Origin: a bacterium
GTDB lineage: Bacteria; Spirochaetota; UBA4802; UBA5550
Direction: 5' to 3'
DNA length: 14,477 nt
Assembly: GCA_024224995.1 (NCBI GenBank)
Contig: JAAENB010000114.1
Location: forward strand, 1 to 14,477
The position numbers and the translations under genes were made by a program. This document shows, piece after piece, positions 1 to 14,363 of the stretch (the first letter of the stretch is position 1; every line of letters starts with the position of its first letter). The notes under the pieces were generated by a model. That model worked only from the letters and a program-made list of their open reading frames with translations, was not told the DNA's origin and searched no databases.

Positions 1-1479
1 ATAAATGAACTCATTGATACTTTTAAACTCCTTATCCCGCAAATTTTTAAATTATCAATAGAAGAACAAGAATTTATTGAATTTTCTCTTTATGATCATT
101 TTAATGAACTAAAAGATACCTTATGGCTATACCTGGAATATCCCTATGTAGATAAAGTATACCGGAACAGTTATTATTCATACTATTCATCAAAGCATAA
201 AGACTTTGATCGAAACTGCATACGGATCTCTCTGTTTGATTCCGAAATAAGCGACCGGGATTTTAGAGATAACGAAAGAATTCCGCGTGTTCAAAAATGC
301 TATCTTGGATATATCGTAATCAGACCAACCAGCTCTTGCTTAATAGGCCGGTCAATGATATCGCCCGGAGCTATGAAAAATGATAATTTTCTATGCTGCC
401 TGGTAAAAGATACAAGCCTTATTAACGGTCTATTATTAACAACTGCCGCCTTTCCGCATTCATCGCAAGACCAGGAAACAATAACGTGCGCGGAAACAAC
501 GATATGGTCAATAATGGAATATTTCGGAAATAAATATTCTGATTATACCCCGGTGCTGCCATCGGGTATAATTAATGTGTTAAAAAATATATCAACAGAA
601 CGATTACTGCCGTCAACCGGTTTATCAGCAGCTCAAATATCATTTGCTTTAAAAGAATTTGGATTTGGTACTAAAATGTATTCGAAAGGTGCTTATGCAG
701 AAGATGAACTCAAAAGGATCTTTAACTACTACATAGAATCAGGAATCCCGGTAATAACCTCTTTGCAAAATCCGGAAATTGGTCATGCTGTAATATATTG
801 CGGACATGAAAATTTTGACCCAAATAAAATTAATCATTGTCCTGTTTCAAGAACAATCCCCCGGCCCGAAGGTAACCCTTTGAAAATTTATGATACCGCT
901 GATATAGATAAAAAATTTGTTATAATTGACGATAATCATTGTCCATACCGTGTATCAAGTTTTGAAAATCCCACTGAATATTATCTCGATCCTGCTTTTG
1001 ACGACTGTGAAATAGACTCAATTATAGTGCCGTTATATCCAAAAATATACCTGGAAGCTATAAATGCACGAAAAATAGTTGATTTTATACTCGGTTCTAA
1101 TAAAATTGGTATGGAAAGTGATTCTGTAGTAATTAGATTTTTTCTCACATCAAGCCGTTCTTTTAAGACTTGTATAAATTTGAATACAAGTTTCGACACT
1201 GTTTGTAGAGAACTCATTCTCAGCTCTACAATGCCGAAATTTATCTGGGTAGCGGAGCTATCATCTAAAAACTTATATAAGCAAAAAAAAGCTTTTGGAT
1301 ATATTATTATTGATTCAACCGGTACGGAAAGCATGGAATCAATTATTTTTATTGTGTTTTCCAATCAATTTATGACAATAGAGAACAACAGGCTACAAAT
1401 ACACAAAAGAAATTACTCCAAATTATATGATATATATGAAAATAATTTAAAAGGGAGATGGAACAAATGGCAAGGATAG
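1..1479 (+). CDS. Papain-like (C39-like) cysteine peptidase family protein, 5' end outside the window
   Basis: The frame is open from base 1, so the ATG at 355 is internal and the first 118 codons in the window belong to the same protein (492 residues visible). The block around C163 (TCAETTIW) looks like the catalytic cysteine helix of papain-fold peptidases. H262 in GHAVIYCGHE and D310/D311/N312 in VIIDDNH are spaced as expected for the rest of a Cys-His-Asp/Asn site. A region before the cysteine (YLGYIVIRPT, then IGRSMISPG) and an alpha-helical/beta C-terminal half of about 180 residues have no function I recognise. No signal peptide can be judged because the start is missing. The stop overlaps the next gene by 13 bases, suggesting translational coupling. 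The peptidase-like fold is inferred from motif order; activity and substrate are unknown. Confidence 0.7.
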   Translation: MNELIDTFKLLIPQIFKLSIEEQEFIEFSLYDHFNELKDTLWLYLEYPYVDKVYRNSYYSYYSSKHKDFDRNCIRISLFDSEISDRDFRDNERIPRVQKCYLGYIVIRPTSSCLIGRSMISPGAMKNDNFLCCLVKDTSLINGLLLTTAAFPHSSQDQETITCAETTIWSIMEYFGNKYSDYTPVLPSGIINVLKNISTERLLPSTGLSAAQISFALKEFGFGTKMYSKGAYAEDELKRIFNYYIESGIPVITSLQNPEIGHAVIYCGHENFDPNKINHCPVSRTIPRPEGNPLKIYDTADIDKKFVIIDDNHCPYRVSSFENPTEYYLDPAFDDCEIDSIIVPLYPKIYLEAINARKIVDFILGSNKIGMESDSVVIRFFLTSSRSFKTCINLNTSFDTVCRELILSSTMPKFIWVAELSSKNLYKQKKAFGYIIIDSTGTESMESIIFIVFSNQFMTIENNRLQIHKRNYSKLYDIYENNLKGRWNKWQG

Positions 1480-1664
1480 TCAATAGAATAGAAGAAATCA
1501 GGAATACATTTAAAGAAAGCGGCAACTATGTTGAACTATCAGAGACAGAAACCGCTGAGATTGCTGCCGCCCTCAGGAAAGAGATGGAAGTAGTCAGGCG
1601 GGAATGCAGAAAAAAAGAGCGCCTGTCAATAGAGATCGCATCAAAAATAATAATAAATACTTAA
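1467..1664 (+). CDS. Small charged helical protein coupled to the peptidase gene
   Basis: A 65-residue protein with no family I recognise. It is rich in Glu, Arg and Lys and likely helical: an N-terminal VNRIEEIRNTF helix, then a long helix from about residue 27 to 60 (ETAEIAAALRKEMEVVRREC). I chose the ATG at 1467 because AAGGGAG at 1451-1457 is 9 bases upstream; the ATG at 1458 touches that site and is less likely. The start lies inside the end of the peptidase frame (13-base overlap), so the two are probably one transcript and perhaps functional partners. A small helical protein coupled to a peptidase could be an inhibitor, adaptor or substrate, but this is inference. A strong hairpin begins 1 base after the stop. 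Confidence 0.6.
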   Translation: MARIVNRIEEIRNTFKESGNYVELSETETAEIAAALRKEMEVVRRECRKKERLSIEIASKIIINT

Positions 1665-1692
1665 GCGCGGTTTCTTTCAACTAAAACCGCGC
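1665..1692. terminator. Strong hairpin after the peptidase/small-protein pair
   Basis: A perfect 9-bp stem, GCGCGGTTT (1665-1673) with AAACCGCGC (1684-1692), and a 10-base loop. It starts right after the stop at 1662-1664. There is no T-run on the plus strand, so its efficiency as an intrinsic terminator is uncertain. The right arm also encodes the last residues (ARF) of the cut-off small minus-strand gene, so the hairpin may once have served converging genes. Confidence 0.5.
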
Positions 1693-1713
1693 CTCCCCAA
1701 GCAGCTGCCTCAT
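1681..1713 (-). pseudogene. Detached C-terminal end of the small minus-strand gene at 3364-3543
   Basis: Read on the minus strand, 1713 to 1681 encodes MRQLLGEARF followed by TAG. The same ending, MRQLLGEAA and stop, follows YGEEMRV in the fragment at 5153-5217, whereas the copy at 3361 stops abruptly after YGDEMR. So 1681-1713 is the missing tail of that gene, moved 1650 bp away by the segment at 1714-3363. Only the Val codon between the halves is absent. Confidence 0.75.
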
Positions 1714-1750
1714 AGCCGTAACAATTTATACTACAATCGTGAGAATAAAA

Positions 1751-2542
1751 ATGAGTGTTACCTGGATTCTTGAAAGAGAAATATTTTCCGATAATCATGA
1801 AAGACTTGAAACGTCTGCGATTAAAGCCGGACACAGGGTGATATCCTGGGATGATGATTGGCTTGAAAATAACAAATGGCCTGAGCTTAATGATGAGTAT
1901 GTTCTGTTCCATGGAAGTCTGGGCAATGCCCATAAAATTGCCAATGACTTCCCCTGGGCTCCCGGTGCTTTTTGCAATACCCGGGCATTTTTATGCAACT
2001 ATTGGTATAACGAAGTTAAGAAGTGGCTTGTTCATAAAAAATGGGTAGAAAGTACTGTTATTGATTTCATCAATAAACCTGAATTTTATTTGGAACAAAT
2101 AGATGCTTTTGATTCTTTTTTTGTTCGACCCAACAGCCCTCTGAAACCATTTTCCGGGCGTGTTTTGCAAACAGAGAGCTTAACGATGAAAGCGCTTGAT
2201 CATGGGTTTTACTATGATGATGAGAATCTTCCTATTATCATTACCCCTGTTGTTGAAATAGGAAAAGAATGGCGGGTTGTAATTGCTAATGGGAAACCTG
2301 TTTGCGCTTCTTCATATGAATCTGTCGGCAGAGTTGAAAGCGAGCACGATTGCCCGGATGAAGTCTGGAAAATCGCGTCTGATATTTCATCAAGCATAAC
2401 CCAGCCTGATCCTATTTACATACTTGATGTATGTGAGACAGGTGATGAATTTAAGCTGCTTGAATTAAACCCTTTTAGCGGTGCTGATTTGTATAACTGC
2501 AATAGGGATTCTATTGTTGCTGCTGTTAGTGAACCAGCATAA
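1751..2542 (+). CDS. ATP-grasp protein, R2K type (DUF4343-like)
   Basis: A 263-residue predicted ATP-dependent ligase. ATP-grasp enzymes join a carboxylate to an amine or other nucleophile through an acyl phosphate. The pattern fits the R2K clade as I know it: FFVRPNSPLKPFSG near residues 123-136, then EWRVVIANGKPVCASSY, then IYILDVCETGDEFKLLELNPF near the C terminus, which supplies the acidic and Asn metal/ATP ligands. The substrate cannot be read. The start is either GTG at 1739 or ATG at 1751; I prefer 1751 because GTGAG at 1739-1743 is a plausible, weak ribosome site 7 bases ahead. No signal peptide, so cytoplasmic. It is the first gene of the inserted segment, with 104 bases before the methyltransferase start. 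Confidence 0.72.
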   Translation: MSVTWILEREIFSDNHERLETSAIKAGHRVISWDDDWLENNKWPELNDEYVLFHGSLGNAHKIANDFPWAPGAFCNTRAFLCNYWYNEVKKWLVHKKWVESTVIDFINKPEFYLEQIDAFDSFFVRPNSPLKPFSGRVLQTESLTMKALDHGFYYDDENLPIIITPVVEIGKEWRVVIANGKPVCASSYESVGRVESEHDCPDEVWKIASDISSSITQPDPIYILDVCETGDEFKLLELNPFSGADLYNCNRDSIVAAVSEPA

Positions 2543-2567
2543 AAACACCCCGGCACAGCCCTTCCTG

Positions 2568-2584
2568 TTTTTTGGTTGACTTTT
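2568..2584 (+). promoter_or_regulatory. T6-GGTTGAC motif, copy 1 of 4
   Basis: TTTTTTGGTTGACTTTT lies between the ATP-grasp and methyltransferase genes. The TTGACT part matches a -35 box after a T-tract, but no good -10 hexamer stands 16-18 bases downstream. Near-identical words stand upstream of three later cargo genes (4204, 5318, 5749). The segment after it also resembles that after copy 3: both run through a similar stretch to an ATGAAA and AAGG word. Confidence 0.45.
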
Positions 2585-2646
2585 ATTATGGTGTTATGAA
2601 ATAAAGGATGGAAGAGAACTTCAATATCAATTCAAAGGATAGGTCC

Positions 2647-3360
2647 ATGAGAACTAAAATTAGTATCCGTTTTCTACTTATATTGCTCCTATTCGTTTCT
2701 ATTTTCTGTAATAAATCCCAAAGTCATAATGACCAGGAAGTTCAAATTGATTGTCCTCTTAGAAAGCAAGGAATTAATGCACATAGCCTGAAGCCTTTTA
2801 AAGAGATAAAAAAATATATTGAATTTTTAGAAAAAGAAGACAGGGCAATATGGCAAAAACCCGGTTTAGTAGTTTCATCACTGGGATTAAAAGGTTCTGA
2901 AACTATAGCAGATATCGGTGCAGGTTCCGGGTACTTTTCTTTTCGTTTTGCTTCAGAGTTACCAAAAGGAAAAGTAATCGCCATTGACACAGAACCTGAA
3001 ATGATCCGGCATATTCATCACAAATCAAAGGCATCAGGTATTAAAAATATTGAAGTAGTATATGCATCGCATGATGATCCAAAAGTACCAAGCAATGTTG
3101 ATGTAGTTTTTATTTGCGATGTATTGCACCATGTAAAAGATCTTCCCCGGTGGCTGTTGAAATTGAATTCGGAAATGAGAAAAGGGGCGAAGCTTGTTGT
3201 TATAGAATTTAAAGAGGGGAATCTGCCGGAGGGGCCTCCGGAAAAAATGAAAATTTCAAGCAAAAAAATGTTATCACGAGTAAGTGATGCAGGGTTTAAA
3301 TTGACACAACAAAAACTCGATTTATTACCATACCAGTATTACTATGAGTTTACAAAATAA
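2647..3360 (+). CDS. Exported class I SAM-dependent methyltransferase
   Basis: A 237-residue Rossmann-fold methyltransferase. Motif I is D89-G95 (ADIGAGSGYF), the acidic ribose-binding residue is D114 (VIAIDTEPEM), and motif IV is DVVFICDVLHH. The block AIWQKPGLVVSSLGLKGSE just before motif I is characteristic of a methyltransferase group often found with signal peptides. Residues 1-21 (MRTKISIRFLLILLLFVSIFC) form a signal sequence. C21 could be a lipidation site, but Phe before it is not a standard lipobox, so simple secretion or a membrane anchor is possible. The ATG at 2647 is preferred over 2608 because AAAGGA stands 7 bases ahead and the signal peptide then begins at residue 1. An extracytoplasmic SAM enzyme is puzzling because SAM is cytoplasmic. 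Substrate unknown. The stop ends 3 bases before the cut small gene. Confidence 0.8.
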   Translation: MRTKISIRFLLILLLFVSIFCNKSQSHNDQEVQIDCPLRKQGINAHSLKPFKEIKKYIEFLEKEDRAIWQKPGLVVSSLGLKGSETIADIGAGSGYFSFRFASELPKGKVIAIDTEPEMIRHIHHKSKASGIKNIEVVYASHDDPKVPSNVDVVFICDVLHHVKDLPRWLLKLNSEMRKGAKLVVIEFKEGNLPEGPPEKMKISSKKMLSRVSDAGFKLTQQKLDLLPYQYYYEFTK

Positions 3361-3543
3361 CTACCGCATCTCATCCCCGTAAAGACACAGCTTGAATCGG
3401 TCCTCCGCGTCCAACCGGTATACCTCTTCGGGGGAAGTCCTGTCCTGGGGGAGATTCAGGATGATTTCTTTTAGGATTAGTTCAAGGGTTTCTCTCTGGG
3501 TTTCTTCAAGGGTGATAGTTCTTTCGTTTTGTTGAGATGACAT
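3361..3543 (-). CDS. Small minus-strand protein of the divergent module, C-terminally truncated by an insertion
   Basis: A 60-residue protein beginning MSSQQNERTITLEETQRE and ending YGDEMR. I chose the ATG at 3541-3543 because AAGGAG lies 8 bases before it; the longer frame to 3612 has no such site. No known family is recognised. The middle (ETLELILKEIILNLPQD) is likely a helix, and DAEDRFKLCLYG near the end recurs partly in the fragment at 5153-5217. The intact form would continue V-MRQLLGEA to about 71 residues; here a stop contributed by the inserted segment ends it after MR. It may still work if the tail is dispensable. It is transcribed divergently from the XRE regulator at 3765, a layout seen in regulator/partner and toxin-antitoxin-like pairs, though no toxin fold is visible. 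Confidence 0.6.
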   Translation of the reverse strand: MSSQQNERTITLEETQRETLELILKEIILNLPQDRTSPEEVYRLDAEDRFKLCLYGDEMR

Positions 3544-3764
3544 TGGCTGGTCTCCTTCGCTTTCAGGAATTAATTTATTGTTGACAATTCTCAAAAAGAG
3601 CAGTCTAAACAAGGGATAAACTTAAAGGTTCTCCTTTGGGATTGCCGCGACAGATACTGAAACATTCTAGCACTAGAACGCTATAAATCACCATATCCGT
3701 CAACAACTTATTCCGATTAAACGTTAAATTGTTTCCACAAAGTGCTATTTAGGAGATCAGTATA
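3544..3764. promoter_or_regulatory. Divergent control region of the small protein and the XRE regulator
   Basis: This 221-bp gap separates two divergent start codons. It holds a perfect dyad, TTCTAG-CA-CTAGAA (3665-3678), a good candidate operator for the XRE protein. A -10-like TATAAAT at 3682-3688 lies just downstream, facing the regulator, so a repressor on the dyad would block that promoter. A smaller AAAGG/CCTTT dyad sits at 3625-3638. No clear promoter was fixed for the minus-strand gene. Confidence 0.45.
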
Positions 3765-4127
3765 ATGGATTTCAGGGTATTACCGCTTCACGATAAAATT
3801 AAAGAATTACGAACCGACATGGGCTGGACTCAAGGGGAACTTGCGGACAAAATTGGTACGGATGCACGAATGATCAGTCAGTATGAAAAAGGGAAATCTG
3901 TTCCTTCTGTTGAATACGTGATTAATTTCGCAGAGACTTTCAATGTTTCTGTTGATTATCTTCTGGTTGAAGATGCTCCCAAAAGGCCGTTTAAAGATGG
4001 CGGGGATAAGGAGCTCATGGGGCAGTTCCTTGAGGTGAATAAGCTGCCGGAGAAGGACAGGGAGATGGTGAAGTATATGATTGATTCTGTGCTTATGAGA
4101 GATCGGTTGAGGGGTATGGTGAAGTGA
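3765..4127 (+). CDS. XRE-family helix-turn-helix transcriptional regulator
   Basis: A 120-residue DNA-binding protein. Residues 12-64 (IKELRTDMGWTQGELADKIG, then ISQYEKGKSVPS, then FNVSVDYLL) form a classic HTH_3 domain. A polar linker (KRPFKDGGDKELMGQF) leads to a C-terminal helix (LPEKDREMVKYMIDSVLMRDRLRGMVK) that probably mediates dimerisation. AGGAG at 3751-3755 is 9 bases before the ATG. It is divergent from the small gene at 3361-3543 and most likely regulates both through the dyad at 3665-3678. Its 3' third is duplicated at 5218-5315 (96/98 bases) and an older relative of its middle lies at 5763-5816. This is the only complete copy in the window. The sequence names the family, not the ligand or targets. 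Confidence 0.88.
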   Translation: MDFRVLPLHDKIKELRTDMGWTQGELADKIGTDARMISQYEKGKSVPSVEYVINFAETFNVSVDYLLVEDAPKRPFKDGGDKELMGQFLEVNKLPEKDREMVKYMIDSVLMRDRLRGMVK

Positions 4128-4168
4128 GTGTAGGCTTCCGGGGAGAAAGCTCTTTAAAAGAAGTAAGA

Positions 4169-4186
4169 ATTTCATTTTAATGAAAT
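4169..4186. repeat. 18-bp perfect dyad downstream of the regulator
   Basis: ATTTCATT-TT-AATGAAAT is a perfect inverted repeat of two 8-base arms 42 bases after the regulator stop. It could be an operator for the deaminase promoter at 4213-4241 or a weak terminator; there is no T-run directly after it. Function not established. Confidence 0.4.
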
Positions 4187-4203
4187 CGTTAGGAGGAAGA
4201 GAG

Positions 4204-4241
4204 TTTTTTTGGTTGATTTATTAGAGTTGGATTGATATATT
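4204..4241 (+). promoter_or_regulatory. Promoter with T7-GGTTGAT motif (copy 2 of 4), upstream of the deaminase gene
   Basis: TTTTTTTGGTTGATTTA at 4204-4220 is copy 2 of the repeated motif. Here it forms a good sigma-70-type promoter: TTGATT (4213-4218), a 17-base spacer, and TATATT (4236-4241). Transcription would start near 4248, leaving a leader of about 85 bases before the ATG at 4333. The leader contains a direct repeat TGACATAAT at 4292-4300 and 4308-4316. Confidence 0.55.
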
Positions 4242-4332
4242 AGATATATGACTTTGTTACGGATATACTGTATTTATACATAAAAACAATGTGACATAAT
4301 TTTAATTTGACATAATAAAGCCAAAAATTACC

Positions 4333-4893
4333 ATGATACAAATAATAGGTTTAACAGGTTCTTTTGGAAGTGGATGCACTTTCATAGCCGAAAAAAAGAT
4401 TGTAAAGCATGGTTATAAGTATATTTCATTATCAAATATACTAAGAGACGAATATAAAAAAGAACACGGACAGGCTTCGGATGAGAACCGTGATTTGTTG
4501 CAAAATTATGGAAATAAGATTAGAGAAGAATTAGACAATGATATCAAAGATCTAATTACTGTTAAAGAGCAACAAATGTCTATTTCAAAATTATTTAAAG
4601 AAAAATTTAAAAATTTAGATTACTGTAGATCATTACATGCAGAGGAAAATGCGATTTTAAATATTGCCAGATTTGGAAGTTCAGCTGCTCTATCAGATGC
4701 AACAATCTATACGACGACCTATCCCTGTAATTTGTGTGCTAATAAAATTGTTCAAGTAGGTATCAAAAAAGTCGTTTATCTTGAACCCTATCCTATGCCT
4801 GAAGCAAAAAAAATATTAGAAAAAAATAATATTACGCAAGAATCATTTGAAGGTGTTTTGTTTAATGGTTACTTTAGATTTAAAGGAGAATAA
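4333..4893 (+). CDS. Compact P-loop/cytidine-deaminase-fold protein, related to dCMP deaminase and AvcD-type anti-phage deaminases
   Basis: A 186-residue protein in two parts. The N terminus has a P-loop-like GSFGSGCT (residues 9-16), with Cys where a Walker A lysine would stand, then a nucleotide-kinase-like stretch to about residue 66 ending in QNYGNKIREE. The C-terminal part (about 97-180) has the zinc-deaminase signature H102-A-E104 and PC132-NLC135. P-loop plus deaminase fusions are known as AvcD-type dCTP/dCMP deaminases that deplete pyrimidine nucleotides during phage infection, but those are usually 500 residues or so. Here most of the kinase-like domain and the front of the deaminase are missing between residues about 66 and 97, with no frameshift. 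It could be a compact family, a decayed gene or a plain deaminase relative. No ribosome site is visible before the ATG. The zinc-ribbon gene follows directly. Confidence 0.75.
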   Translation: MIQIIGLTGSFGSGCTFIAEKKIVKHGYKYISLSNILRDEYKKEHGQASDENRDLLQNYGNKIREELDNDIKDLITVKEQQMSISKLFKEKFKNLDYCRSLHAEENAILNIARFGSSAALSDATIYTTTYPCNLCANKIVQVGIKKVVYLEPYPMPEAKKILEKNNITQESFEGVLFNGYFRFKGE

Positions 4894-4894
4894 A

Positions 4895-5080
4895 ATGAAA
4901 ATATGTCCGGAATGTGGTGAATTAGCATCATTTAACTCTCACTTTGGTGCATATATGTGCTCTAATTGTTCCTGGAGAGACGATTCATATAATACACTAA
5001 GAGCGAATAAAAATGCACATAAATCAGAAAAAGTTGATCCCCTATCACATCAGACATCTGATAATTGTTATTGCAAATAG
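4895..5080 (+). CDS. Small zinc-ribbon protein
   Basis: A 61-residue protein with a two-knuckle zinc ribbon: C4-PE-C7 and C22-SN-C25, followed by SWRDDS. The rest is polar and ends DNCYCK, giving two further Cys. The ATG at 4895 is chosen because AAAGGAG at 4882-4888 is 6 bases ahead, inside the end of the deaminase gene; the longer frame from 4847 lacks such a site. With one base between the deaminase stop and this start, the two are almost certainly co-transcribed and translationally coupled, so it may be an accessory factor of the deaminase. No enzymatic motif is present, and nucleic-acid or protein binding is inferred only from the fold. Confidence 0.65.
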   Translation: MKICPECGELASFNSHFGAYMCSNCSWRDDSYNTLRANKNAHKSEKVDPLSHQTSDNCYCK

Positions 5081-5084
5081 CACT

Positions 5085-5147
5085 TCACATACGCCGGAAA
5101 CGTTGAACAAAGCCACCGGGATGCGGTGGCTTTCCCTGCATATGTGA
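5085..5147. terminator. Nested hairpin after the deaminase/zinc-ribbon operon
   Basis: The inner stem AAAGCCACCG (5109-5118) pairs perfectly with CGGTGGCTTT (5124-5133) around a 5-base loop and ends in a short T3, giving a plausible intrinsic terminator for the plus-strand operon. Outside it, TCACATA (5085-5091) pairs with TATGTGA (5141-5147), making a larger unequal dyad. The outer pair is unusual for a simple terminator. Confidence 0.6.
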
Positions 5148-5152
5148 TAAAT

Positions 5153-5217
5153 CTACGCCGCCTCCCCCAAAAGCTGCCTCATGACCCGCATCTCTTCTCC
5201 GTAAAGACTATAGTTTA
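5153..5217 (-). pseudogene. C-terminal fragment of a second copy of the small minus-strand gene
   Basis: On the minus strand this encodes SLYGEEMRVMRQLLGEAA and a stop (TAG at 5155-5153), preceded by a few less certain codons to about 5217. It matches the end of the gene at 3361-3543 (CLYGDEMR) and then the detached tail at 1681-1713 (MRQLLGEA), in one uninterrupted order. This makes it the reference for the uncut gene. Its N-terminal part is deleted and it abuts a fragment of the XRE gene at 5218. The stretch 5081-5389 has no complete gene: it holds the nested hairpin, this fragment, the XRE fragment and a T6-GGTTGAC motif. Confidence 0.75.
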
Positions 5218-5315
5218 TTGAGGTGAATAAGCTGCCGGAGAAGGACAGGGAGATGGTGAAGTATATGATTGATTCTGTGCTTATGAGAGATCGGTTGAGG
5301 GATTTGGTGAAGTGA
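5218..5315 (+). pseudogene. 3' fragment of a second XRE regulator copy
   Basis: These 98 bases match 4030-4127 of the intact XRE gene at 96 positions without gaps, from the codons LEVNK to the stop at 5313-5315. The two changes turn the end RLRGMVK into RLRDLVK. There is no HTH region, promoter or start, so it cannot make a regulator. With the fragment at 5153-5217 it is a collapsed copy of the divergent module: both tails kept, both heads and the control region lost. Confidence 0.9.
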
Positions 5316-5317
5316 AA

Positions 5318-5335
5318 TTTTTTGGTTGACCTTTT
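5318..5335 (+). promoter_or_regulatory. T6-GGTTGAC motif, copy 3 of 4
   Basis: TTTTTTGGTTGACCTTTT begins 2 bases after the stop of the truncated XRE fragment and 72 bases before the DUF1801 start. TTGACC could be a -35 box, although no good -10 hexamer is evident. The following bases resemble those after copy 1 at 2568. Confidence 0.45.
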
Positions 5336-5389
5336 GTAACGAGTGCATGAAAAGGAATGCTTAGATTATTTTTAAGAGGATGACGAAAA

Positions 5390-5743
5390 ATGCCCAAAAA
5401 AGGAAAAAATTATAAAGAATATATTTCTTCATGCAAGCCGGAAAATAAACCGGTATTTGAAAATCTTTTTACAACACTGAATAAAGCGTTACCGGATCAT
5501 GATTTATCAATGAGATACGGCTTCCCTTTATTAGACGGTTATGGAAAAGTCGGTTTTGATGAAAGAGCCGGTTATGTAGTTATCTACTTCCATCATTTTG
5601 ATCTAAAAGTTACAGTAGATAATTATAGCAGCGAACTTGGCGACTATAAATTAGAGAAAGAAAGTCTTAGATATAAAGAAGCATCTCAAATCCCCGTTGA
5701 AATTATTTGCAAGATCGCAGATGAATTATTTAATAAAAAATAA
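5390..5743 (+). CDS. DUF1801 (YdhG-like) domain protein
   Basis: A 117-residue single-domain protein. The pattern KEYISSCKPENKPVFENLFTTL, then DHDLSMRYGFPLLDGYGKVGF, then AGYVVIYFHH matches the DUF1801/YdhG fold, which has a frataxin-like alpha/beta architecture. The length is normal for the family. AAGAGGA at 5374-5380 is 9 bases before the ATG. No signal peptide, so cytoplasmic. The family's biochemical role is poorly defined; iron or small-molecule binding has been suggested for relatives, and I do not extend that here. It stands alone between two XRE-gene fragments, each marked by a T(6-7)GGTTGAY motif, so it looks like a single-gene cargo. Confidence 0.75.
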   Translation: MPKKGKNYKEYISSCKPENKPVFENLFTTLNKALPDHDLSMRYGFPLLDGYGKVGFDERAGYVVIYFHHFDLKVTVDNYSSELGDYKLEKESLRYKEASQIPVEIICKIADELFNKK

Positions 5744-5748
5744 AAACC

Positions 5749-5765
5749 TTTTTTTGGTTGATTTT
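5749..5765 (+). promoter_or_regulatory. T7-GGTTGAT motif, copy 4 of 4
   Basis: TTTTTTTGGTTGATTTT starts 6 bases after the DUF1801 stop and runs into the XRE fragment at 5763. It is upstream of the VanX-like gene, as the other copies are upstream of their cargo. No hairpin precedes the T-run, so it is not an obvious terminator. Confidence 0.45.
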
Positions 5766-5816
5766 AAAGAAGGTGGTGATAAAGAATTGACAGGACAGTT
5801 TCTTGAGGTAAATAAA
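5763..5816 (+). pseudogene. Internal fragment of an older XRE-regulator paralogue, now the leader of the VanX-like gene
   Basis: These 54 bases read FKEGGDKELTGQFLEVNK, matching the intact regulator's linker (codons from 3990 to 4043) at 16 of 18 residues but only 41 of 54 bases. Most changes are silent, so the sequence diverged while still translated as protein and only later became a fragment. It ends at the LEVNK codons where the fragment at 5218 begins. Its GAGG (5805-5808) now sits 9 bases before the ATG of the dipeptidase gene and probably serves as its ribosome site. Confidence 0.75.
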
Positions 5817-5817
5817 A

Positions 5818-6495
5818 ATGAAAATTTTGTTCATTAGCACCATACTCCTGTCAGGTTTATTGATGACAGGGTGTAGTAAACCAGGCAGCAATAATCCCGT
5901 AGAAAGAAAATTTAAAAAAGCCGGGCTTATAGATATTCATACAATTGATCCCACAATTAAAGTAAAGTTAGTTAATTCGAATAAATGGGACAATTATTTT
6001 AGTGAAAATTATTATGAAGGTTTACAAAAGGCATATTTACAAAGAACTGTTGCAATCAAATTGTCAAAAGCACAGAAAATTCTAAAAAAACGATATCCAA
6101 ATTTTTCTTTGCACATAATGGATGCAGCACGGCCATATTCCGTAAGCGTAAAAATGTACAAAAAAATGAAGGGAACAAGATTTGAAAAATATGTCGCAAA
6201 TCCTAAAAGAGGTTCTATGCACAACTACGGCGCTGCGGTTGACATAACTATCGTTAATGAAAAGGAAGAAATAATTGATATGGGAATGATTCCTTTTTAT
6301 AAAACAAAAGTTGGGGTTATTATTTCGTACCTATTACACAAAGGAAAAAAATTAACTAAAACTCAATCTGCAAATAGAAAACTGCTTAAGAATGTAATGA
6401 TTTCAGCCGGGTTTAAACCATTAAGTTTTGAATGGTGGCATTTTAACGGATATTCAAAATCATATATACGAAAGACATATAGTATGATAAAATAA
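5818..6495 (+). CDS. VanX/DdpX-like D-Ala-D-Ala dipeptidase lipoprotein (peptidase M15D)
   Basis: A 225-residue zinc peptidase of the M15 family. Metal ligands are H135 and D142 in SMHNYGAAVD and H208 in EWWHF; E205 is the catalytic base, and R105 in DAARPY matches the VanX substrate arginine. Residues 1-19 end in LMTGC, a standard lipobox, so it is predicted to be a lipoprotein acting outside the cytoplasmic membrane. VanX-type enzymes cleave D-Ala-D-Ala; secreted relatives may recycle peptidoglycan dipeptides. No vanH or vanA homologue is near, so a glycopeptide-resistance role is not supported. The GAGG 9 bases before the ATG comes from a relic of an XRE gene. No function-breaking change is visible. 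Confidence 0.85.
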   Translation: MKILFISTILLSGLLMTGCSKPGSNNPVERKFKKAGLIDIHTIDPTIKVKLVNSNKWDNYFSENYYEGLQKAYLQRTVAIKLSKAQKILKKRYPNFSLHIMDAARPYSVSVKMYKKMKGTRFEKYVANPKRGSMHNYGAAVDITIVNEKEEIIDMGMIPFYKTKVGVIISYLLHKGKKLTKTQSANRKLLKNVMISAGFKPLSFEWWHFNGYSKSYIRKTYSMIK

Positions 6496-6604
6496 ACAAG
6501 ACCAAAAATAAAAGGGAACAAGATATGAATTTTATTTTTATAAGGAATATACAAAATACCTGGATTATAAAGTTACCTGCACTCAAACAATAATACTACA
6601 GCAC

Positions 6605-6634
6605 ATTGACGCAATAGTCAATAGTTTTTTAAAT
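6605..6634 (+). promoter_or_regulatory. Promoter of the HI0933-family gene, overlapping a short dyad
   Basis: TTGACG (6606-6611), a 17-base spacer and TTAAAT (6629-6634) make a plausible sigma-70-type promoter. The overlapping dyad ATTGAC-GCAATA-GTCAAT (6605-6622) followed by T6 could instead be a weak terminator for the dipeptidase gene, or an operator. Transcription from here would exclude the ATG at 6633 as start. Confidence 0.4.
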
Positions 6635-6710
6635 GAACGTTAGAGGCAGTCTTGAGCGCATGAAACAAGATTATTCAGATAAATCAAATATAAGCAAAAA
6701 CCAAACAAAG

Positions 6711-7925
6711 ATGGAAATCGCGATAATTGGCGGCGGAGCGGCAGGTTTTTTCGCGGCAATTACGGTAAAGGAAAATTATCCCGAAGCGAGAGTTGTCATT
6801 TTTGAAAAATCGGAAAAGCTCCTGGCCAAAGTAAAAATATCGGGCGGGGGAAGGTGTAATGTAACGAACGGCTGTACATCCGTAAAAGAGCTCTCAGAAG
6901 CCTATCCCAGGGGCGGGAAAGCTTTGAAAAAAGCCTTTCGGATCTTTAATACCAGACACGCAATGGAATGGTTTGAATCGAGAGGCGTTCCTTTAGTAAT
7001 TCAGGATGATAACTGTGTATTTCCCGCGTCTCAAAACTCACAGAGTATTATTGATTGTTTTATAGAAGAAACACAAAAATCAGGGGTTACAATTGAAACA
7101 GGGAAAGGAATAAAGGCCATAAAACAGGCCAATAACAAGCTGGAAGTTGACTTCATAGACGAAGAAATTGAATCGAGAACTTTCGACAGGATAATCGTGG
7201 CAACAGGAGGTTGCCCAAAAAGGACAGGATTGGAGTGGCTTGAAAAATTAAATCACAAGATCGAAGATCCGGTACCTTCGCTATTCACCTTCAATATGCC
7301 GGGCGAACAAGTTACCGAACTCATGGGAGTTGTGGTGAAAAAAACGCTCGTAAGCATACCGGGAACAAAACTCAAATCCGAAGGCCCTTTGCTGATTACC
7401 CATTGGGGAATGAGCGGTCCGGCAATATTAAAATTATCATCTTTTGGAGCCAGAGTATTACATGAAAAAGGATATGAATTTAAAGTCCAGGTAAATTGGG
7501 TCAATGAGCGGAACACGAATATTGTTATTGATAAAATAACAGGTATTGCGAATGAACATCCGAATAAGATCCTGTCGAACTTTCGGCCGTATTCTTTACC
7601 GGAAAGATTATGGCTTTACCTGCTTGAGAAAAGCGGCTTGCCGGAGAATAAAAAGTGGCGGGAGCTCGGAAAAAAGGGGATGAACAAATTGGTTAGCATA
7701 CTAACCAATGATGTTTATTCAATAGAAGGGAAAACATCTTTTAGAGAAGAGTTTGTCACCTGCGGAGGGGTGAGCCTGGAAAGTATCGACTTTACTACGA
7801 TGCAGAGCACGGTGTGCAGCAAGCTCTATTTTGCCGGAGAAATATTGGATATTGACGGAATTACCGGGGGGTATAATTTTCAGGCTGCCTGGACAACGGC
7901 GTTTATAGCAGGCAAATTGAATTAA
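6711..7925 (+). CDS. HI0933/BaiN-family flavoprotein (NAD(P)/FAD-dependent oxidoreductase)
   Basis: A 404-residue flavoprotein. The N-terminal FAD-binding motif IAIIGGGAAGFFAA is followed by FEKSEKLLAKVKISGGGRCNVTN, the hallmark block of the HI0933 family. The C terminus has GEILDIDGITGGYNFQAAWTTA, the second FAD-contact block, with TCGGV before it. Length and domain order are normal for the family. E. coli YhiN is an uncharacterised member, and BaiN has been linked to reduction of bile-acid intermediates, so the substrate here is unknown. I place the start at 6711 because family members begin a few residues before GGG, though no good ribosome site precedes it. The in-frame ATG at 6660 (16-17 further residues) is possible. 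Cytoplasmic. It converges on the lipoprotein gene at 8037. Confidence 0.88.
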   Translation: MEIAIIGGGAAGFFAAITVKENYPEARVVIFEKSEKLLAKVKISGGGRCNVTNGCTSVKELSEAYPRGGKALKKAFRIFNTRHAMEWFESRGVPLVIQDDNCVFPASQNSQSIIDCFIEETQKSGVTIETGKGIKAIKQANNKLEVDFIDEEIESRTFDRIIVATGGCPKRTGLEWLEKLNHKIEDPVPSLFTFNMPGEQVTELMGVVVKKTLVSIPGTKLKSEGPLLITHWGMSGPAILKLSSFGARVLHEKGYEFKVQVNWVNERNTNIVIDKITGIANEHPNKILSNFRPYSLPERLWLYLLEKSGLPENKKWRELGKKGMNKLVSILTNDVYSIEGKTSFREEFVTCGGVSLESIDFTTMQSTVCSKLYFAGEILDIDGITGGYNFQAAWTTAFIAGKLN

Positions 7926-7986
7926 TTCATTTTCCCCCTGACAAGACTCCCATGCGAATGTTTTGGCTGCGAATATATTTTGTTTT

Positions 7987-8023
7987 TAAGAAGATACCTT
8001 TTCAAGAGAAAGGTATCTTCTTA
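7987..8023. terminator. Bidirectional terminator hairpin between convergent genes
   Basis: A perfect 15-bp stem, TAAGAAGATACCTTT (7987-8001) with AAAGGTATCTTCTTA (8009-8023), and a 7-base loop. It lies between the flavoprotein stop (7925) and the stop of the minus-strand lipoprotein (8037), and probably ends both transcripts. Neither strand has a long T-run directly after the stem. Confidence 0.75.
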
Positions 8024-8036
8024 TAATATTGATAGT

Positions 8037-9809
8037 TTATTCAGAACTTAATTTCCAGATAAAAACATCATACGCATTTGTAGGCGAAGAAGAATAATAA
8101 TCCGTACCGGTTCCGGGATCGAAATCAACATTTGTACCATAGAATTGACCGGTTACAAAAATATTATTTAAACTATCTATTGCAATACCTTCACTGCCTT
8201 CAAAACCCGATCCGGTAATTGTTTTTGTCCAGGAATATGTAGAGTCACTATTAAACCTGGTAACAAAAACATCTCGGCCGGAATTTGAAGTATAAAGATC
8301 TTCACCGGTACCAGGATCAAAATCAACATTCGTGCCGGAAAAAGTTCCGGTAAAAAAGATGTTATCAAATTTATCAACAGTAATGTCATATCCGTGATCA
8401 CCGGTAGTACCGCCTACTGTTTTTGTCCAGAGATAAGTACCATTAGTACTATATTTTGACACATAAATATTTGAGCATGAAGAATTTTTACTGGAATGAA
8501 TGTCTTCTTCAGGACCCGGATCAAAATCAACATTTGTTCTATGAAAGTAACCGGTCAGGAATATATTATCACCGGAATCGACAGCAATACCATTATTCCA
8601 ATCAATATAAGTGCCGCCAAATGAATGTGCCCAGGCATAAGAACCGTCACTATTAATTTTTGCAACAAAAACATCATAGCTGCCATTAGATGATTCAATA
8701 TCTTCACCATCCCCCGGGTTGAAGTCGACATTATCACTGGCCATCACGCCGGCGACTATAACATTGCCATAAGAATCTGAAGTGATGTTTTGCGCGAAGT
8801 CATTTATACTCCCGCCTATTGTTACAGTCCATTCATAGGAGAAATCACTGGAAAATTTAGTAACAAAAATATCATTTGCCCCATTAGTTGAATGGAGGTC
8901 CGATCCGGTTCCGGGATTAAAATCAATATCCGTACCGGAAAAACTGCCGGTAAGAAAAATATTTCCCGATGAATCGATTGCCGCATCGCAGTGTGAATCA
9001 CTATCCTGTCCATCAATCACTATTGTCCGGACATAATCACCATCACTTTCCAGTTTAGTTAAAAAACAAGAATACCTTCCGGTACTGGAATGTAAGTCTG
9101 TTCCAGGTCCCGGATTAAAATCTACATCTGCTTCCTGGAAATAGCCTGCCACATAAATATTATTTGACTTATCTACAACAATATTTTTGCAGCCGTCATA
9201 GCCACTTCCTCCAAGAGTTTTAGTCCATAAATAGGAACCATCACTCGCGAACTTGCTAATAAAAACATCTCTTTCACCATTTGAAGAATGGGAATCTGTA
9301 CCGGTACCCGGATCAAAATCGACATTAGTTCCGGAGAATTCTCCTGCTGCAATTATATTGTTTTCCGAATCCGTAGTAATACAATAACCATAATCAGTAC
9401 CGGATCCCCCTGTTAGTATAGTTTTATTATATAGATGTTCCGTAGTTACCGTTGATTCAAGTGTGTAAGAGGCAGATACAATATCACTGTCATTCAGACC
9501 ATCTTTAACAGCAATTGCTTTAATCGTAACCGGGTTGCCATATTTTTCAAATGAAATAGCCGCCCCATTATAAAGATTTGATGAAGTCGCAGGCTCATCT
9601 CCATTTGTAGTATAATAAATAACAGCTCCTTCCGTAGAACAGTTTAGTTCTATATCAACATTGGTACTGTATGTTCCTTTGGCTTTGCTGAATACAGGCG
9701 AAGCTACTTTTGTGCCATCCTGCCCACTGTTATCATTACTACATCCTAAAAAAACTAAACTGATGAGTAAAAATATCAATACTATATTACTTTTTTTTAT
9801 TAATTTCAT
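8037..9809 (-). CDS. Lipoprotein with chitobiase-like domain and seven-repeat beta-propeller (SBBP-type)
   Basis: A 590-residue surface or periplasmic lipoprotein. Residues 1-23 are a signal peptide ending FLGC, a relaxed spirochaete-type lipobox. Residues about 35-117 (SPVFSKAKGTYSTNVDIELN, then VIYYTTNGDEP, then ITIKAIAVKDG-like text) match the small chitobiase C-terminal/FN3-like domain. From about 125 to the end there are seven repeats of about 65 residues, each with an IDSxNNIFxTGxF core, a VDF(D/N)PG motif and a final VFVxKxxSDGxYxWT strand. Seven units fit one closed seven-bladed propeller. The repeated acidic VDFDPG motifs may bind calcium. No enzymatic residues are evident, so a binding or structural role is likely. 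AAAGGAG lies 7 bases before the ATG. Confidence 0.85.
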   Translation of the reverse strand: MKLIKKSNIVLIFLLISLVFLGCSNDNSGQDGTKVASPVFSKAKGTYSTNVDIELNCSTEGAVIYYTTNGDEPATSSNLYNGAAISFEKYGNPVTIKAIAVKDGLNDSDIVSASYTLESTVTTEHLYNKTILTGGSGTDYGYCITTDSENNIIAAGEFSGTNVDFDPGTGTDSHSSNGERDVFISKFASDGSYLWTKTLGGSGYDGCKNIVVDKSNNIYVAGYFQEADVDFNPGPGTDLHSSTGRYSCFLTKLESDGDYVRTIVIDGQDSDSHCDAAIDSSGNIFLTGSFSGTDIDFNPGTGSDLHSTNGANDIFVTKFSSDFSYEWTVTIGGSINDFAQNITSDSYGNVIVAGVMASDNVDFNPGDGEDIESSNGSYDVFVAKINSDGSYAWAHSFGGTYIDWNNGIAVDSGDNIFLTGYFHRTNVDFDPGPEEDIHSSKNSSCSNIYVSKYSTNGTYLWTKTVGGTTGDHGYDITVDKFDNIFFTGTFSGTNVDFDPGTGEDLYTSNSGRDVFVTRFNSDSTYSWTKTITGSGFEGSEGIAIDSLNNIFVTGQFYGTNVDFDPGTGTDYYSSSPTNAYDVFIWKLSSE

Positions 9810-9895: not shown

Positions 9896-10453
9896 TCATA
9901 ACCTCAAAATCCCCCCAACAAGACTCTGAAAATAAGCCTTGTTCTGCACTGTGCCCATTCCATAGCTCCCCAAAAGAAAGGGATACACAATCCCCGACAT
10001 AAAAGCAATAACCCGGTGCGCGGCCTCAGTCTCATCGCTCAGTCCTGTGGCCCGCGTAATAATTTCTTTTAAGACGCCAAAATTCCTCTGCACAGCCTGT
10101 TCAAAATCCGGGTCCACTTCACTGCTCATGATCATTCTTGAGAGCATGGTTTTTTCAAGTCCCGGCTTACTGGAAATAAATTCCAGGAGATCCCCTGCCA
10201 GGTTAACCAGGGTCTCGCGTCCGTTTTCAAAATCAGTGTTGTGCGAAGACAGAACCCGGAACATTTCCTCGTAGTACCACTGCAGCGCCTGTTTTAGCAG
10301 GTTCTCTTTTGAACCAAAGTGATACGATATTGCCGACAGGTTCCCCTCCCCGGCCTCTTTGAGAATTTCCCGCGTGGAAAAATTCCCGCCTCCCTGCTGC
10401 CCCATGAGCCGGAGCACAGCCTGAATAATCCTTGTTTTGGTTGTTTCTTCCAT
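9896..10453 (-). CDS. TetR-family transcriptional regulator
   Basis: A 185-residue TetR-type repressor. Residues 5-53 hold the N-terminal three-helix DNA-binding domain: TRIIQAVLRLMGQQGGGNFSTREI, then AISYHFGSKENLLKQAL, the recognition helix and the family's YHFGSKENLL hallmark. The C-terminal 130 residues are all-helical, as for a ligand-binding dimer domain; the ligand is unknown. GAGGAG lies very close to the ATG, so the exact start is somewhat uncertain. Upstream is a near-palindromic 20-bp site (10461-10480) also found, doubled, at the promoter of the HXXEE gene. This points to autoregulation and control of that gene, which lies upstream in the same orientation. Confidence 0.88.
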   Translation of the reverse strand: MEETTKTRIIQAVLRLMGQQGGGNFSTREILKEAGEGNLSAISYHFGSKENLLKQALQWYYEEMFRVLSSHNTDFENGRETLVNLAGDLLEFISSKPGLEKTMLSRMIMSSEVDPDFEQAVQRNFGVLKEIITRATGLSDETEAAHRVIAFMSGIVYPFLLGSYGMGTVQNKAYFQSLVGGILRL

Positions 10454-11326: not shown

Positions 11327-12442
11327 TCAGCTATCGTAGAAATTTATGAGCCACTGCCTTTCCTGTTCATGGTGATAACAGGCTTTAGTAAACAAATCTA
11401 ATTTATTGCCGGAATCAAAGAGACTGTTCACCCGGGTCTTTATATCATCATGATAAAAATCAGGGGCCATCATGGGTTTATACCGTAACGAAAAATCGCT
11501 GCTTTCTTCATATAATACAACAAATCCTGCTGATAGCTTGTACCGGCCGGAGTTTACATAATCAAAAACGCTCTGTGCAGCAGTAAGTTCAACGGTTCTC
11601 AGCAAGCGGTACATGAGGGTACCAGCTGTTTTAAGTTCAAACTCCGATTCCATGTCCGGAAAATTTTCAACAAGGTAATCAAAAACCGCGTCGGCTTCAT
11701 CTACCGTGGGCGGGACCGCGCAGTTTTCCCTCACAGGATCGAGAATTAGCTCGTTAATTTTATCACCGGCATCCACCCAGAGACAACGGTCGGGCCAATA
11801 GCAAACCTGCCCCCGAAGAATATGGATTGAACGGATAGGAATATCACCCTGCAGGTTCTCTTTTAAAACCTCAATAACATTTGTCGATATCGCTTCCCGG
11901 AAAATATCAAAATTATACATGGTAATTAATAGGTTTTGTTCCGCCAGCTGTTCATCTATATGCCCACTGCCGTGTTTTTGCAATATCTCTAAAAGCTGTT
12001 TGCCGCGCGTTGGATTTGTTTTTTGCAGCTCATCAAGAACATCAATTACCTCGTAACGATCATCGCTAAAATGGTCGTAATCCGCGTTTTTCGCGTATGA
12101 AAGATATAGTTCAAAGAGCGTATCTTCCAGCATTGCGATAATCTCTCTCCCGGGAAGAGCCAGGGCCGCGAATGACCAGGAGTCATCCTTTGGAAGAACA
12201 GTAACCTTGTTAACATACAGCATCAGCTGTTCATGCAGTTCCGGCTGTTTCCACGCGAGCTCAAAGAAATCAAAATAATCCATCTCACTGCCGCAGTCAC
12301 ATTTCCATAGAATATCCTGTTCCCATACAAGACGGGTATTCTCTAAAAACCCGGGGACTTTATCGTTAAGAGCTTTTAATCCCTTTGTTATTGAAGTTCT
12401 TTCATTGGAGCAGGCCGGGCATTTGAACATCAGCTGTATCAC
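11327..12442 (-). CDS. CpXC-like zinc-ribbon protein of unknown function
   Basis: A 371-residue protein. An N-terminal zinc knuckle pair, C8-PA-C11 and C48-D-C50, frames a segment resembling the CpXC domain (a Cys-Pro-x-Cys family). The rest, about 300 residues, is mainly helical with no signature I recognise; VLKENLQGDIPIRSIHILRG and RVNSLFDSGNKLDL are features only. No signal peptide or membrane segment. The start is GTG at 12442-12440: GGAGG lies 6 bases ahead, while the next ATG (5th codon) is too far from it. A 36-bp piece of a related gene survives at 14054-14089, in the same reading frame (LMLFINKVT against LMLYVNKVT here), beyond the sensor gene. That suggests a duplicated and decayed neighbour. 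Confidence 0.65.
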   Translation of the reverse strand: MIQLMFKCPACSNERTSITKGLKALNDKVPGFLENTRLVWEQDILWKCDCGSEMDYFDFFELAWKQPELHEQLMLYVNKVTVLPKDDSWSFAALALPGREIIAMLEDTLFELYLSYAKNADYDHFSDDRYEVIDVLDELQKTNPTRGKQLLEILQKHGSGHIDEQLAEQNLLITMYNFDIFREAISTNVIEVLKENLQGDIPIRSIHILRGQVCYWPDRCLWVDAGDKINELILDPVRENCAVPPTVDEADAVFDYLVENFPDMESEFELKTAGTLMYRLLRTVELTAAQSVFDYVNSGRYKLSAGFVVLYEESSDFSLRYKPMMAPDFYHDDIKTRVNSLFDSGNKLDLFTKACYHHEQERQWLINFYDS

Positions 12443-12523: not shown

Positions 12524-12588
12524 AGACCATGATTTTTTAATAATCAACTATGGAAAACATAACTTCAAGACACTCAGTGTGATAAAAT
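12524..12588. repeat. 65-bp direct repeat, left copy
   Basis: Aligns without gaps to 14082-14146, 59 of 65 bases identical. The two copies bracket the sensor gene at 12682. Inside is a short dyad, ACACT-C-AGTGT. It lies in the 239-base gap 12443-12681, whose other content is the ribosome site of the minus-strand gene and the promoter at 12648. Confidence 0.75.
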
Positions 12589-12681: not shown

Positions 12682-14043
12682 ATGCAAGAAAAAAAAGCAA
12701 AAATAATTCTTCTTGTGGAAGATGAACCCATAACAGCAATGATGGAAAAAAAGAACCTTGAAGAATACAGGTATGCTGTTACCCACGTCCATACCGGAGA
12801 AGAAGCGGTAAAAGCCGCTCTTGAAGAAAAAAAACCAATTGACCTCATCCTTATGGACATTGATCTGGGTTCCGGCATTGACGGAACTGAAGCCGCAGAA
12901 AAAATACTTACCCAAACGGATATCCCTGTTGTTTTTCTTTCGAGTCATACTGAACCTGAAATTGTTGAAAAAACAGAAAAAATAACTTCATATGGGTATG
13001 TTGTAAAAAATACAGGTATGACGGTTCTTGATGCATCTATAAAGATGGCATTTAAGCTCTTTGAGGCCAAAATAAAGGAACGGGAAAAAGAAGATGCATT
13101 GCAAGAGAGCGAAGAACGTCTCTCGCTTGCCCTGGAAGTAACGAATAGTGGAATATGGGAATTCAATCCCCGCACTTTTAATGATTGCCATTATAATGAT
13201 AAATGGTTCACAATGCTTGGGTATAATCCGGATGAGCTCCCGCATACAGCTGAAACCTGGTTAACGCTTATACATCCCGAGGACCTGGAACACTTTCAGC
13301 GGAAATTACAGGACCACATAGAGGGAAAGAATGGATTCTTTGTTGAGTTTCGAATGAAAAGAAAATCCGGCAATTATTGCTGGGTTAACTCTATTGGAAA
13401 AATCGTTTCATGGGATAACAAAAAAAAACCGCGGCGAATGATAGGCATTAATTATGACATTTCCGGCCGTAAAGAATCGGAGAAGGCGCTTCTAAATGAA
13501 AAAATACTTTCAGAAAAATTCATAGACAGCCTGCCGGGTCTTTTTTATGTGTTTGATGAAAAACAGTTTGTACGAAGGAATAAGCAATGGGAGACGATTA
13601 CAGAGTACTCACCGGAAGAACTAAAGACCATGTATGGACCCAGCTTTTTCAATGGTTCCGAGAAAAAGCTTATGGAAAGAAAAATGAAAGAAGTTTTTGA
13701 AAAAGGCGCTTCACATGCTGAAGCCTGCCTGGTAACAAAACATGGTAAGCGAATTCCCTATTATTTTACGGGGGTACGTCAAAAAATAAATGGTAGACCT
13801 CATTTAATTGGTCTGGGTATAGATATCTCGGAACGCAAAAAAGTGGAAGAGTCACTGAAAAAATCCCTTCAGGAAAAATCACCCCTGTTTCACGAGCAGC
13901 AGCGGCGGATTAAAGATAATTTAAGTATGGTATGCAATATAATATCATTATCGATGACGTATACTGAACCAGGGGAGCTCAAATCCGCTATGGTTGAGAT
14001 TGAATCTCGAATAAAAACCATATTTGAACCGCGTGCAGATTGA
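12682..14043 (+). CDS. Receiver-PAS-PAS sensor protein with truncated, histidine-less kinase domain
   Basis: A 453-residue signalling protein. Residues 6-125 are a complete receiver domain: acidic pair E13/D14, phosphoacceptor D59 (LILMDIDLG), S87, and K109 in YGYVVKNTG. Two PAS domains follow, about 146-268 (LALEVTNSGIWEFNP, WLTLIHPEDLEHF, GINYDISGRKESE) and about 275-395 (IDSLPGLFYVFDE, GLGIDISERKKVE). The end (about 395-446) looks like the start of a HisKA_2-type dimerisation domain, but where the family has EVHHRIKNN this has EQQRRIKDN (405-413). Both histidines are replaced (Q407, R408). No ATPase domain follows; the frame stops 40 residues later. It therefore cannot autophosphorylate and may act as a receiver-sensor, or be a decaying kinase. 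The start has no ribosome site and may be leaderless. Confidence 0.82.
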   Translation: MQEKKAKIILLVEDEPITAMMEKKNLEEYRYAVTHVHTGEEAVKAALEEKKPIDLILMDIDLGSGIDGTEAAEKILTQTDIPVVFLSSHTEPEIVEKTEKITSYGYVVKNTGMTVLDASIKMAFKLFEAKIKEREKEDALQESEERLSLALEVTNSGIWEFNPRTFNDCHYNDKWFTMLGYNPDELPHTAETWLTLIHPEDLEHFQRKLQDHIEGKNGFFVEFRMKRKSGNYCWVNSIGKIVSWDNKKKPRRMIGINYDISGRKESEKALLNEKILSEKFIDSLPGLFYVFDEKQFVRRNKQWETITEYSPEELKTMYGPSFFNGSEKKLMERKMKEVFEKGASHAEACLVTKHGKRIPYYFTGVRQKINGRPHLIGLGIDISERKKVEESLKKSLQEKSPLFHEQQRRIKDNLSMVCNIISLSMTYTEPGELKSAMVEIESRIKTIFEPRAD

Positions 14044-14053
14044 TGCGTGTCAA

Positions 14054-14089
14054 AGTAACCTTGTTGATAAACAGCATCAACAGACCATG
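14054..14089 (-). pseudogene. 36-bp relic of a gene related to the CpXC-like gene at 11327
   Basis: 29 of 36 bases match 12200-12235 inside the CpXC-like gene, in the same reading frame: HGLLMLFINKVT against HEQLMLYVNKVT. The match ends at both sides, running into the sensor gene's stop region at one end and into the right 65-bp repeat at the other. It is short, so similarity by chance is not excluded, but frame and orientation agree. Confidence 0.5.
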
Positions 14090-14146
14090 TTTTTTTAATA
14101 ATTGACTATGGAAAACATAACTTCGACACACTGAGTGTGATAAAAT
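14082..14146. repeat. 65-bp direct repeat, right copy
   Basis: Aligns without gaps to 12524-12588 (59/65). Its central dyad is longer here, CACACT-G-AGTGTG. Its left end overlaps the relic of the CpXC-like gene by 8 bases. Confidence 0.75.
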
Positions 14147-14324: not shown

Positions 14325-14363
14325 GCCCCCTCTCAAGAAACTTAATTTTGCTTGTGAGCGGGC
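14325..14363. repeat. Imperfect hairpin near the right edge
   Basis: GCCCCCTCTCAAG (14325-14337) pairs with CTTGTGAGCGGGC (14351-14363) at 11 of 13 positions around a 13-base loop. Its right foot overlaps the left foot of the next, larger hairpin. Confidence 0.5.

Follow-up and report, generated by a model that had tools for sequence, protein, structure and literature searches.

Why do pieces of a single gene pair lie between genes that have nothing to do with it? The question is raised by a 14,477-base stretch of a contig assigned to Spirochaetota (JAAENB010000114.1; hereafter the window, meaning the whole stretch analyzed), in which a gene for a small acidic protein stands divergently beside a gene for an XRE-type repressor, and further fragments of this pair occupy gaps between other genes. 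Plus-strand genes run from the left end of the window to ∼7925; beyond that point all genes but one, a plus-strand sensor gene, are on the minus strand. The cargo at 1665 to 6632 comprises genes for an R2K-clade ATP-grasp protein, a methyltransferase, a short deaminase plus zinc ribbon, a DUF1801-like protein and an M15-family peptidase. The answer we favor, which we give about an even chance of being right, is that this is a hypervariable stretch in which low-GC genes accumulated next to copies of a lineage-restricted gene family, and deletions afterwards trimmed those copies. The pieces that bear on this reading are as follows, with M1 denoting the whole of 3361-4127:

3361..3612, minus strand: M1 small gene, 252 nt, 3′ end cut (stop codon 3361-3363; the database open reading frame starts at MSSQQ, 60 aa)
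3765..4127, plus strand: M1 XRE gene, RstR-family repressor, 120 aa, intact (NF041951, PF01381)
5153..5315: M3, small-gene 3′ end (minus strand) joined to XRE 3′ end (plus strand), an internal deletion derivative
5763..5816, plus strand: M4, XRE gene middle with low G+C content at third codon positions (GC3), lying two bases ahead of the M15 gene's ATG
1690..1718, minus strand: M0, small-gene 3′ end AMRQLLGEAR, upstream of the R2K gene

A preliminary description of the locus had recorded M1 as a full module, M3 as a collapsed copy and M4 as a third relic. All three are real, and M0, together with a 12-base block that recurs four times, had been overlooked. M1 proved near-complete rather than full: its XRE gene is intact and the two genes are divergent, but its small gene is cut at the 3′ end. 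Specifically, the M1 small gene stops after EMR and its cut end directly abuts the methyltransferase stop codon at 3358-3360; the relatives P0012 and P0013 run 10 to 11 residues further, ending EMRAMRQLLGEVR. In M3 the small-gene end reads YGEEMRVMRQLLGEAA*, that is, the end absent from M1, the XRE portion consists of the last ∼33 codons, and the middle of the pair is gone. Positions 5212-5315 of M3 match M1 over 104 nt with 96% identity and a longest exact run of 84 nt, a match reached by 0/60 shuffles. The small-gene half of M3 is weaker taken alone (0/60 shuffles with the short query, 2/60 with the 252-nt small gene as query). The M4 translation, FKEGGDKELTGQFLEVNK, spans 18 codons. Its score is 25, and the best of 600 shuffles reached 17; for M0 the corresponding values, also from 600 shuffles, are 18.5 and 16.5. 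Four further candidates were set aside as chance matches, at 10386-10411 (5/60 shuffles), 28-51 (7/60), 610-649 (7/60) and 5337-5378 (2/60).

The pieces differ in age and source. M1 and M3 differ at 4/102 coding nucleotides, one change being synonymous and three nonsynonymous, as would be expected of a recent copy no longer under constraint; judged by this identity they are near-identical duplicates and so not independent arrivals. M4 differs from M1 at 13/54 nucleotides and 11/18 codons, nine of the codon differences being synonymous and two nonsynonymous, and 0/5000 random-substitution trials, whether plain or AT-directed, gave so few nonsynonymous codons. GC3 is 3/18 in M4 and 12/18 in M1 (p=0.006). 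Because its changes are mostly synonymous and its GC3 is different, M4 descends from another XRE family member, one that was low in GC, like the genes next to M4, and formerly held under selection in a low-GC setting. It would have come with its neighbor gene or from a low-GC relative. Both codons that differ between M0 and M3 are synonymous.

The small protein belongs to a family of its own. A profile search of 5.8 billion proteins detected seven relatives among 20 candidates: the window's own protein, P0012, and five proteins with the locus-tag prefix GY754 (P0013-P0017; numbers 03180 to 34890), a shared prefix that we take to mean one assembly. Measured over the whole alignment, identity to P0012 is 51-64% for four of the GY754 proteins and 48% for the other. 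The small protein appears to represent a lineage-restricted, multi-member family whose members have diverged and of which five apparently share one assembly. At the limits used, Pfam, NCBIfam, PHROGs and PADLOC assigned it to no family. Its predicted fold is of low confidence (mean predicted local distance difference test score, pLDDT, 71.8; predicted template modeling score, pTM, 0.44), the model matches no structure of PDB or BFVD at E≤0.001, and the sequence has no PDB match at that limit (best, 0.37). At the sensitivity used, the protein was not matched in plasmids or phages, and none of 15 pattern stretches in GTDB contigs was confirmed. Three scans of viral contigs gave 46, 85 and 89 pattern stretches, all unconfirmed, and a fourth gave none. 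At the DNA level, window positions 1-8000 were unmatched in plasmids and 3361-5830 in phages. Among 49 genomes or records the profile had a single match, at E=0.003 and within a 233-aa frame, which was judged to be chance; it had none in 395 genomes of the phylum of genome G003 or in 124 of that of genome G001, negatives that prove nothing in the absence of a positive control.

How, then, are the pieces joined to their neighbors? M1 is cut after EMR, M3 carries an internal deletion, M0 is a small-gene tail only and M4 an XRE middle only. The preliminary description had taken the pair for a repeated landing or breakage point, and a common landing point is not what we find, because the position of the join within the pair varies. 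Its statement that each cargo gene starts after a piece stands insofar as pieces do lie at joins of unrelated plus-strand genes; the pattern is partly automatic, because genes stay intact only if debris sits in the gaps, and M1 and M3 count as one duplication. Pieces occur in 4/6 gaps of the plus-strand array and in 0/6 gaps elsewhere (one-sided p=0.03, with gaps and split drawn by hand after the data had been seen); with the 12-base block counted, the figures are 5/6 and 0/6 (p=0.008, same post hoc split).

These observations bear directly on a rival explanation, that the pair is a gene pair like any other in a region prone to insertion and deletion, and that its relics mark nothing, being debris of random breakage tolerated only in gaps. 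The scattered join points and the single duplication behind M1 and M3 both speak for such bystander relics, as does an unrelated 65-nt repeat (91% identity, at 12524 and 14082) that flanks a different gene, showing that repeats at joins are not special to the pair. Against it, the presence of at least two distinct family members (M4 as opposed to M1/M3) needs multiple arrivals or a long-lived array, and the pieces fall in 4/6 array gaps but in none of the six elsewhere. We regard this explanation as possible, though clearly less probable than serial accretion.

Serial accretion is consistent with the composition of the cargo, whose genes are:

1739..2542, plus strand: R2K-clade ATP-grasp gene (PF18299, PF14243; GTG start, ATG at 1751 possible)
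2608..3360, plus strand: class I methyltransferase gene, hydrophobic N-terminus (PF13847 and others)
4333..4893, plus strand: short deaminase gene related to anti-phage dCTP deaminase (PADLOC dCTPase, 1.3e-44), with a P-loop-like part at the N-terminus
4895..5080, plus strand: small zinc-ribbon protein gene (weak PF14206; four CxxC cysteines in the sequence)
5390..5743, plus strand: DUF1801-like gene (PF08818 at E=0.0014, below its cut-off)
5818..6495, plus strand: M15-family peptidase gene, D-Ala-D-Ala dipeptidase-like (PF01427)

GC3 is 0.20-0.33 in these six genes, compared with 0.52 and 0.48 in the pair and 0.43 in the next gene, HI0933, and the earlier term accretion island is a fair description of the array. 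The deaminase scored 115.9 bits against NF041025, below the cut-off of 400. At only 186 aa it is short beside the 437 positions of the anti-phage dCTP deaminase model that it resembles, and its P-loop-like N-terminus leads straight into the deaminase domain. The M15 gene scored 40.5 bits against the VanX model NF033115 (cut-off 320), and all VanX models were below cut-off. A GAGGT inside M4 may serve as the putative ribosome-binding site of the M15 gene. Two hairpins adjoin pieces of the pair:

1663..1694: hairpin, terminator-like on the minus strand, between a 68-aa open reading frame and M0 (12 pairs; segment 1660-1700, z −5.0)
5085..5147: hairpin before M3 (segment 5085-5155, z −3.6)

In the accretion reading, low-GC foreign genes would have been gained serially, on the chromosome or a plasmid, beside copies of the small-protein/RstR-like XRE pair. 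A copy of the pair would have been present and then duplicated, recently, to give M1 and M3, after which M3 would have lost its middle; from the order of M3's two ends, we infer a deletion with one end inside the small gene and the other in the XRE gene. Other, older family members, or segments carrying them, may have been present or have arrived, and would then have been trimmed to M0 and M4. The pair itself would be passive: at most, its repeated copies would have offered short homology for integration or loss of neighbors. The deaminase and zinc-ribbon genes lie between direct repeats 1188 bp apart, and because these share the 84-nt exact run, the two-gene unit could be lost or circularized by ordinary homologous recombination. 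No recombinase or transposase family was found among the 16 open reading frames of the window scanned with Pfam.

The 12-base block poses a different problem. The sequence TTTTTTGGTTGA occurs exactly four times, on the plus strand and in gene gaps, before the methyltransferase, deaminase, DUF1801 and M15 genes; in 600 shuffles it occurred at most once (mean 0.015). The block is matched once more, with a single mismatch, at 3256 within the methyltransferase gene. The four copies are:

2568..2583, plus strand: copy 1, TTTTTTGGTTGA, here with CTTT
4205..4220, plus strand: copy 2
5318..5333, plus strand: copy 3
5750..5765, plus strand: copy 4, running into M4

The flanks are unrelated on the left and mostly unrelated on the right, and the four blocks have no hairpin in common (eight segments folded, z −1.7 to 0.6). 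At 4205 the block is followed by an imperfect tandem copy of part of itself (4209-4244, period 19, 1.9 copies). The TTGAYT of the block is −35-like, and one of the four copies is followed 17 bases on by a TATATT −10 box (4213-4241); the promoter scan found no −10 partner for the other three. Promoter-like sites in the region as a whole show no excess, numbering 17 against a shuffle mean of 19.8. The block is possibly part of a promoter.

Could the block instead be the site of a cassette system, in which a recombinase encoded elsewhere joins units that start at TTTTTTGGTTGAYTTT and hold one or two genes, sometimes with the pair? The same 12 bases stand at four joins between mostly unrelated flanks, the genes are all on one strand, and the units between blocks measure 1637, 1113 and 432 bases, all of which agree with such a system. 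Counting the other way, a simple pattern scan for attC-like sites (RYYYAAC...GTTRRRY), made without HattCI, gave no candidate in the window, whereas 20 shuffles averaged 3.3; no hairpin is conserved at the blocks; no block precedes the R2K or HI0933 gene; and a shared promoter or operator is simpler, given the −35-like TTGAYT and the good −10 box at one site. We consider a cassette system of this kind very improbable. Slightly less credit still goes to the more elaborate proposal of a non-integron cassette array joined at a 12-16 base site, TTTTTTGGTTGAYTTT, in which the pair would be the element's control unit, copied and left behind by each round of capture. An integron cassette array proper was rejected in view of the absence of attC-like candidates, in agreement with the preliminary description, which had placed no integron site at the joins; nor did the 16 scanned reading frames include an integron integrase.

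An operator common to pair and cargo was likewise rejected, as the one candidate occurs only once, in the pair's own promoter region:

3665..3678: palindrome TTCTAGCACTAGAA, possible XRE operator, in the divergent promoter region

At the two-mismatch limit this palindrome was matched in 93/200 shuffles and is therefore weak.

What kind of repressor does the pair encode? The XRE protein scored 86.3 bits against the RstR family NF041951 (residues 8-114), above the curated cut-off of 80; in control genomes the model gave weaker matches in 14/14 and matches over the cut-off in 0/14. It also matches phage transcription regulators (PHROG 8). Its best plasmid matches, at 42% identity, are from Leptospira, and on two Leptospira plasmids the matched repressors are divergent from a CHC2 zinc-finger replication gene with an integrase nearby. 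A phage-type ancestry of the pair is thus possible. In its fullest form this idea would have small integrated phages or satellites use the pair, a repressor with a divergent early gene, as their immunity switch; the cargo genes would be passengers left after tandem decay of such elements. The RstR score, the PHROG 8 match and the Leptospira arrangement all point toward it. However, there is no integrase, replication or structural gene among the 16 Pfam-scanned reading frames (PHROGs covered seven proteins only), the small protein has no PHROG and is unmatched in phages, plasmids and viral contigs, and the RstR family label is weak evidence because XRE repressors matched 147 phage and 883 plasmid records. 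We judge a phage switch unlikely. The XRE protein also resembles antitoxin helix-turn-helix models, below their cut-offs. In toxin-antitoxin pairs one gene is toxic and the other neutralizing, and the two are usually adjacent and co-directional; the small gene and XRE gene are divergent.

Of 34 candidates found for the XRE protein, 10 proved to be relatives. In length, none of the six other small-protein contigs equals any of the nine other XRE-relative contigs, a comparison in which contigs are short and distant XREs would escape. The pairing of the small gene with an XRE gene is therefore shown in the window only, by M1 and by M3 as its duplicate, and the notion of a travelling, recurrent module is unsupported, the length of the window's contig being the only one common to both sets of relatives.

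Several points weigh against serial accretion beside the pair. Insertion, order and the homology-driven steps are read from a single window. The gap comparison is small and was drawn after the fact. GC3 is equally low outside the array, at 0.27 in both the beta-propeller gene and the reading frame at 355. The presence of the 12-base block at joins is unexplained by passive decay.

The surroundings of the array have features of their own. At its left edge, a 374-aa reading frame (355-1479) overlaps the 68-aa frame (1458-1664), both on the plus strand; for the former the one family match, to peptidase C10, is sub-threshold and unconvincing. On the right, the HI0933-like flavoprotein (6633-7925) has 416 confirmed relatives, of which the best 80 come from mixed phyla, none titled spirochaete; the best match (79% identity) is to Cloacimonadota-titled metagenome-assembled genomes, and other titles include Desulfobacula and Bacteroidetes. 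This spread over mixed phyla suggests frequent transfer of the flavoprotein gene. The 371-aa protein at 11330-12442 had no match in 124 Cloacimonadota genomes. The lipoprotein-like gene at 8037-9809 encodes a chitobiase C-terminal-type domain and beta-propeller repeats, and is the source of the 198-nt-spaced repeat family D1. The copies of the 65-nt direct repeat (12524-12588 and 14082-14146) lie on either side of a response regulator-PAS gene (12682-14043), which has a partial HisKA_2 match (profile positions 3-43 of 76) and no ATPase-domain match, as if truncated before the repeat. Near the right end, 14361-14448 forms a long imperfect hairpin (28-nt arms, 86% complementary, folding z −4.9), for which Rfam returned microRNA models only, far below gathering scores.

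The locus yields a lineage-restricted protein family with several diverged members and a concrete, checkable array of joins. If such pieces mark joins in many genomes, they would represent a regulator family that seeds gene accretion without a dedicated recombinase.

Several known systems invite comparison. Like chromosomal integron cassette arrays, the window has single-gene units that all face one way and are separated by a short repeated sequence; it differs in having no attC-like site and no integrase match among the scanned reading frames, and its repeats are coding pieces of a gene pair. In translocatable units bounded by insertion sequences, such as IS26 arrays, direct copies likewise separate unrelated cargo and could mediate its loss by homologous recombination, whereas in the window no transposase was found among the 16 scanned reading frames, no terminal inverted repeats were seen (inverted repeat pairs, the 25 longest of 41, do not bound the copies) and the copies are cut at different places. 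The XRE protein resembles RstR-family phage repressors (NF041951) in scoring over the cut-off and in being divergent from another gene; here that gene encodes an uncharacterized small protein, not a replication protein, and no phage genes were found among the scanned reading frames. Lastly, hypervariable genomic islands and defence islands are built by successive gene gain. Their debris belongs to insertion sequences, tRNA genes or integrases and that of the window to a regulator pair; the window resembles them in its unrelated low-GC genes, one related to an anti-phage deaminase, on one strand and with debris in the gaps.

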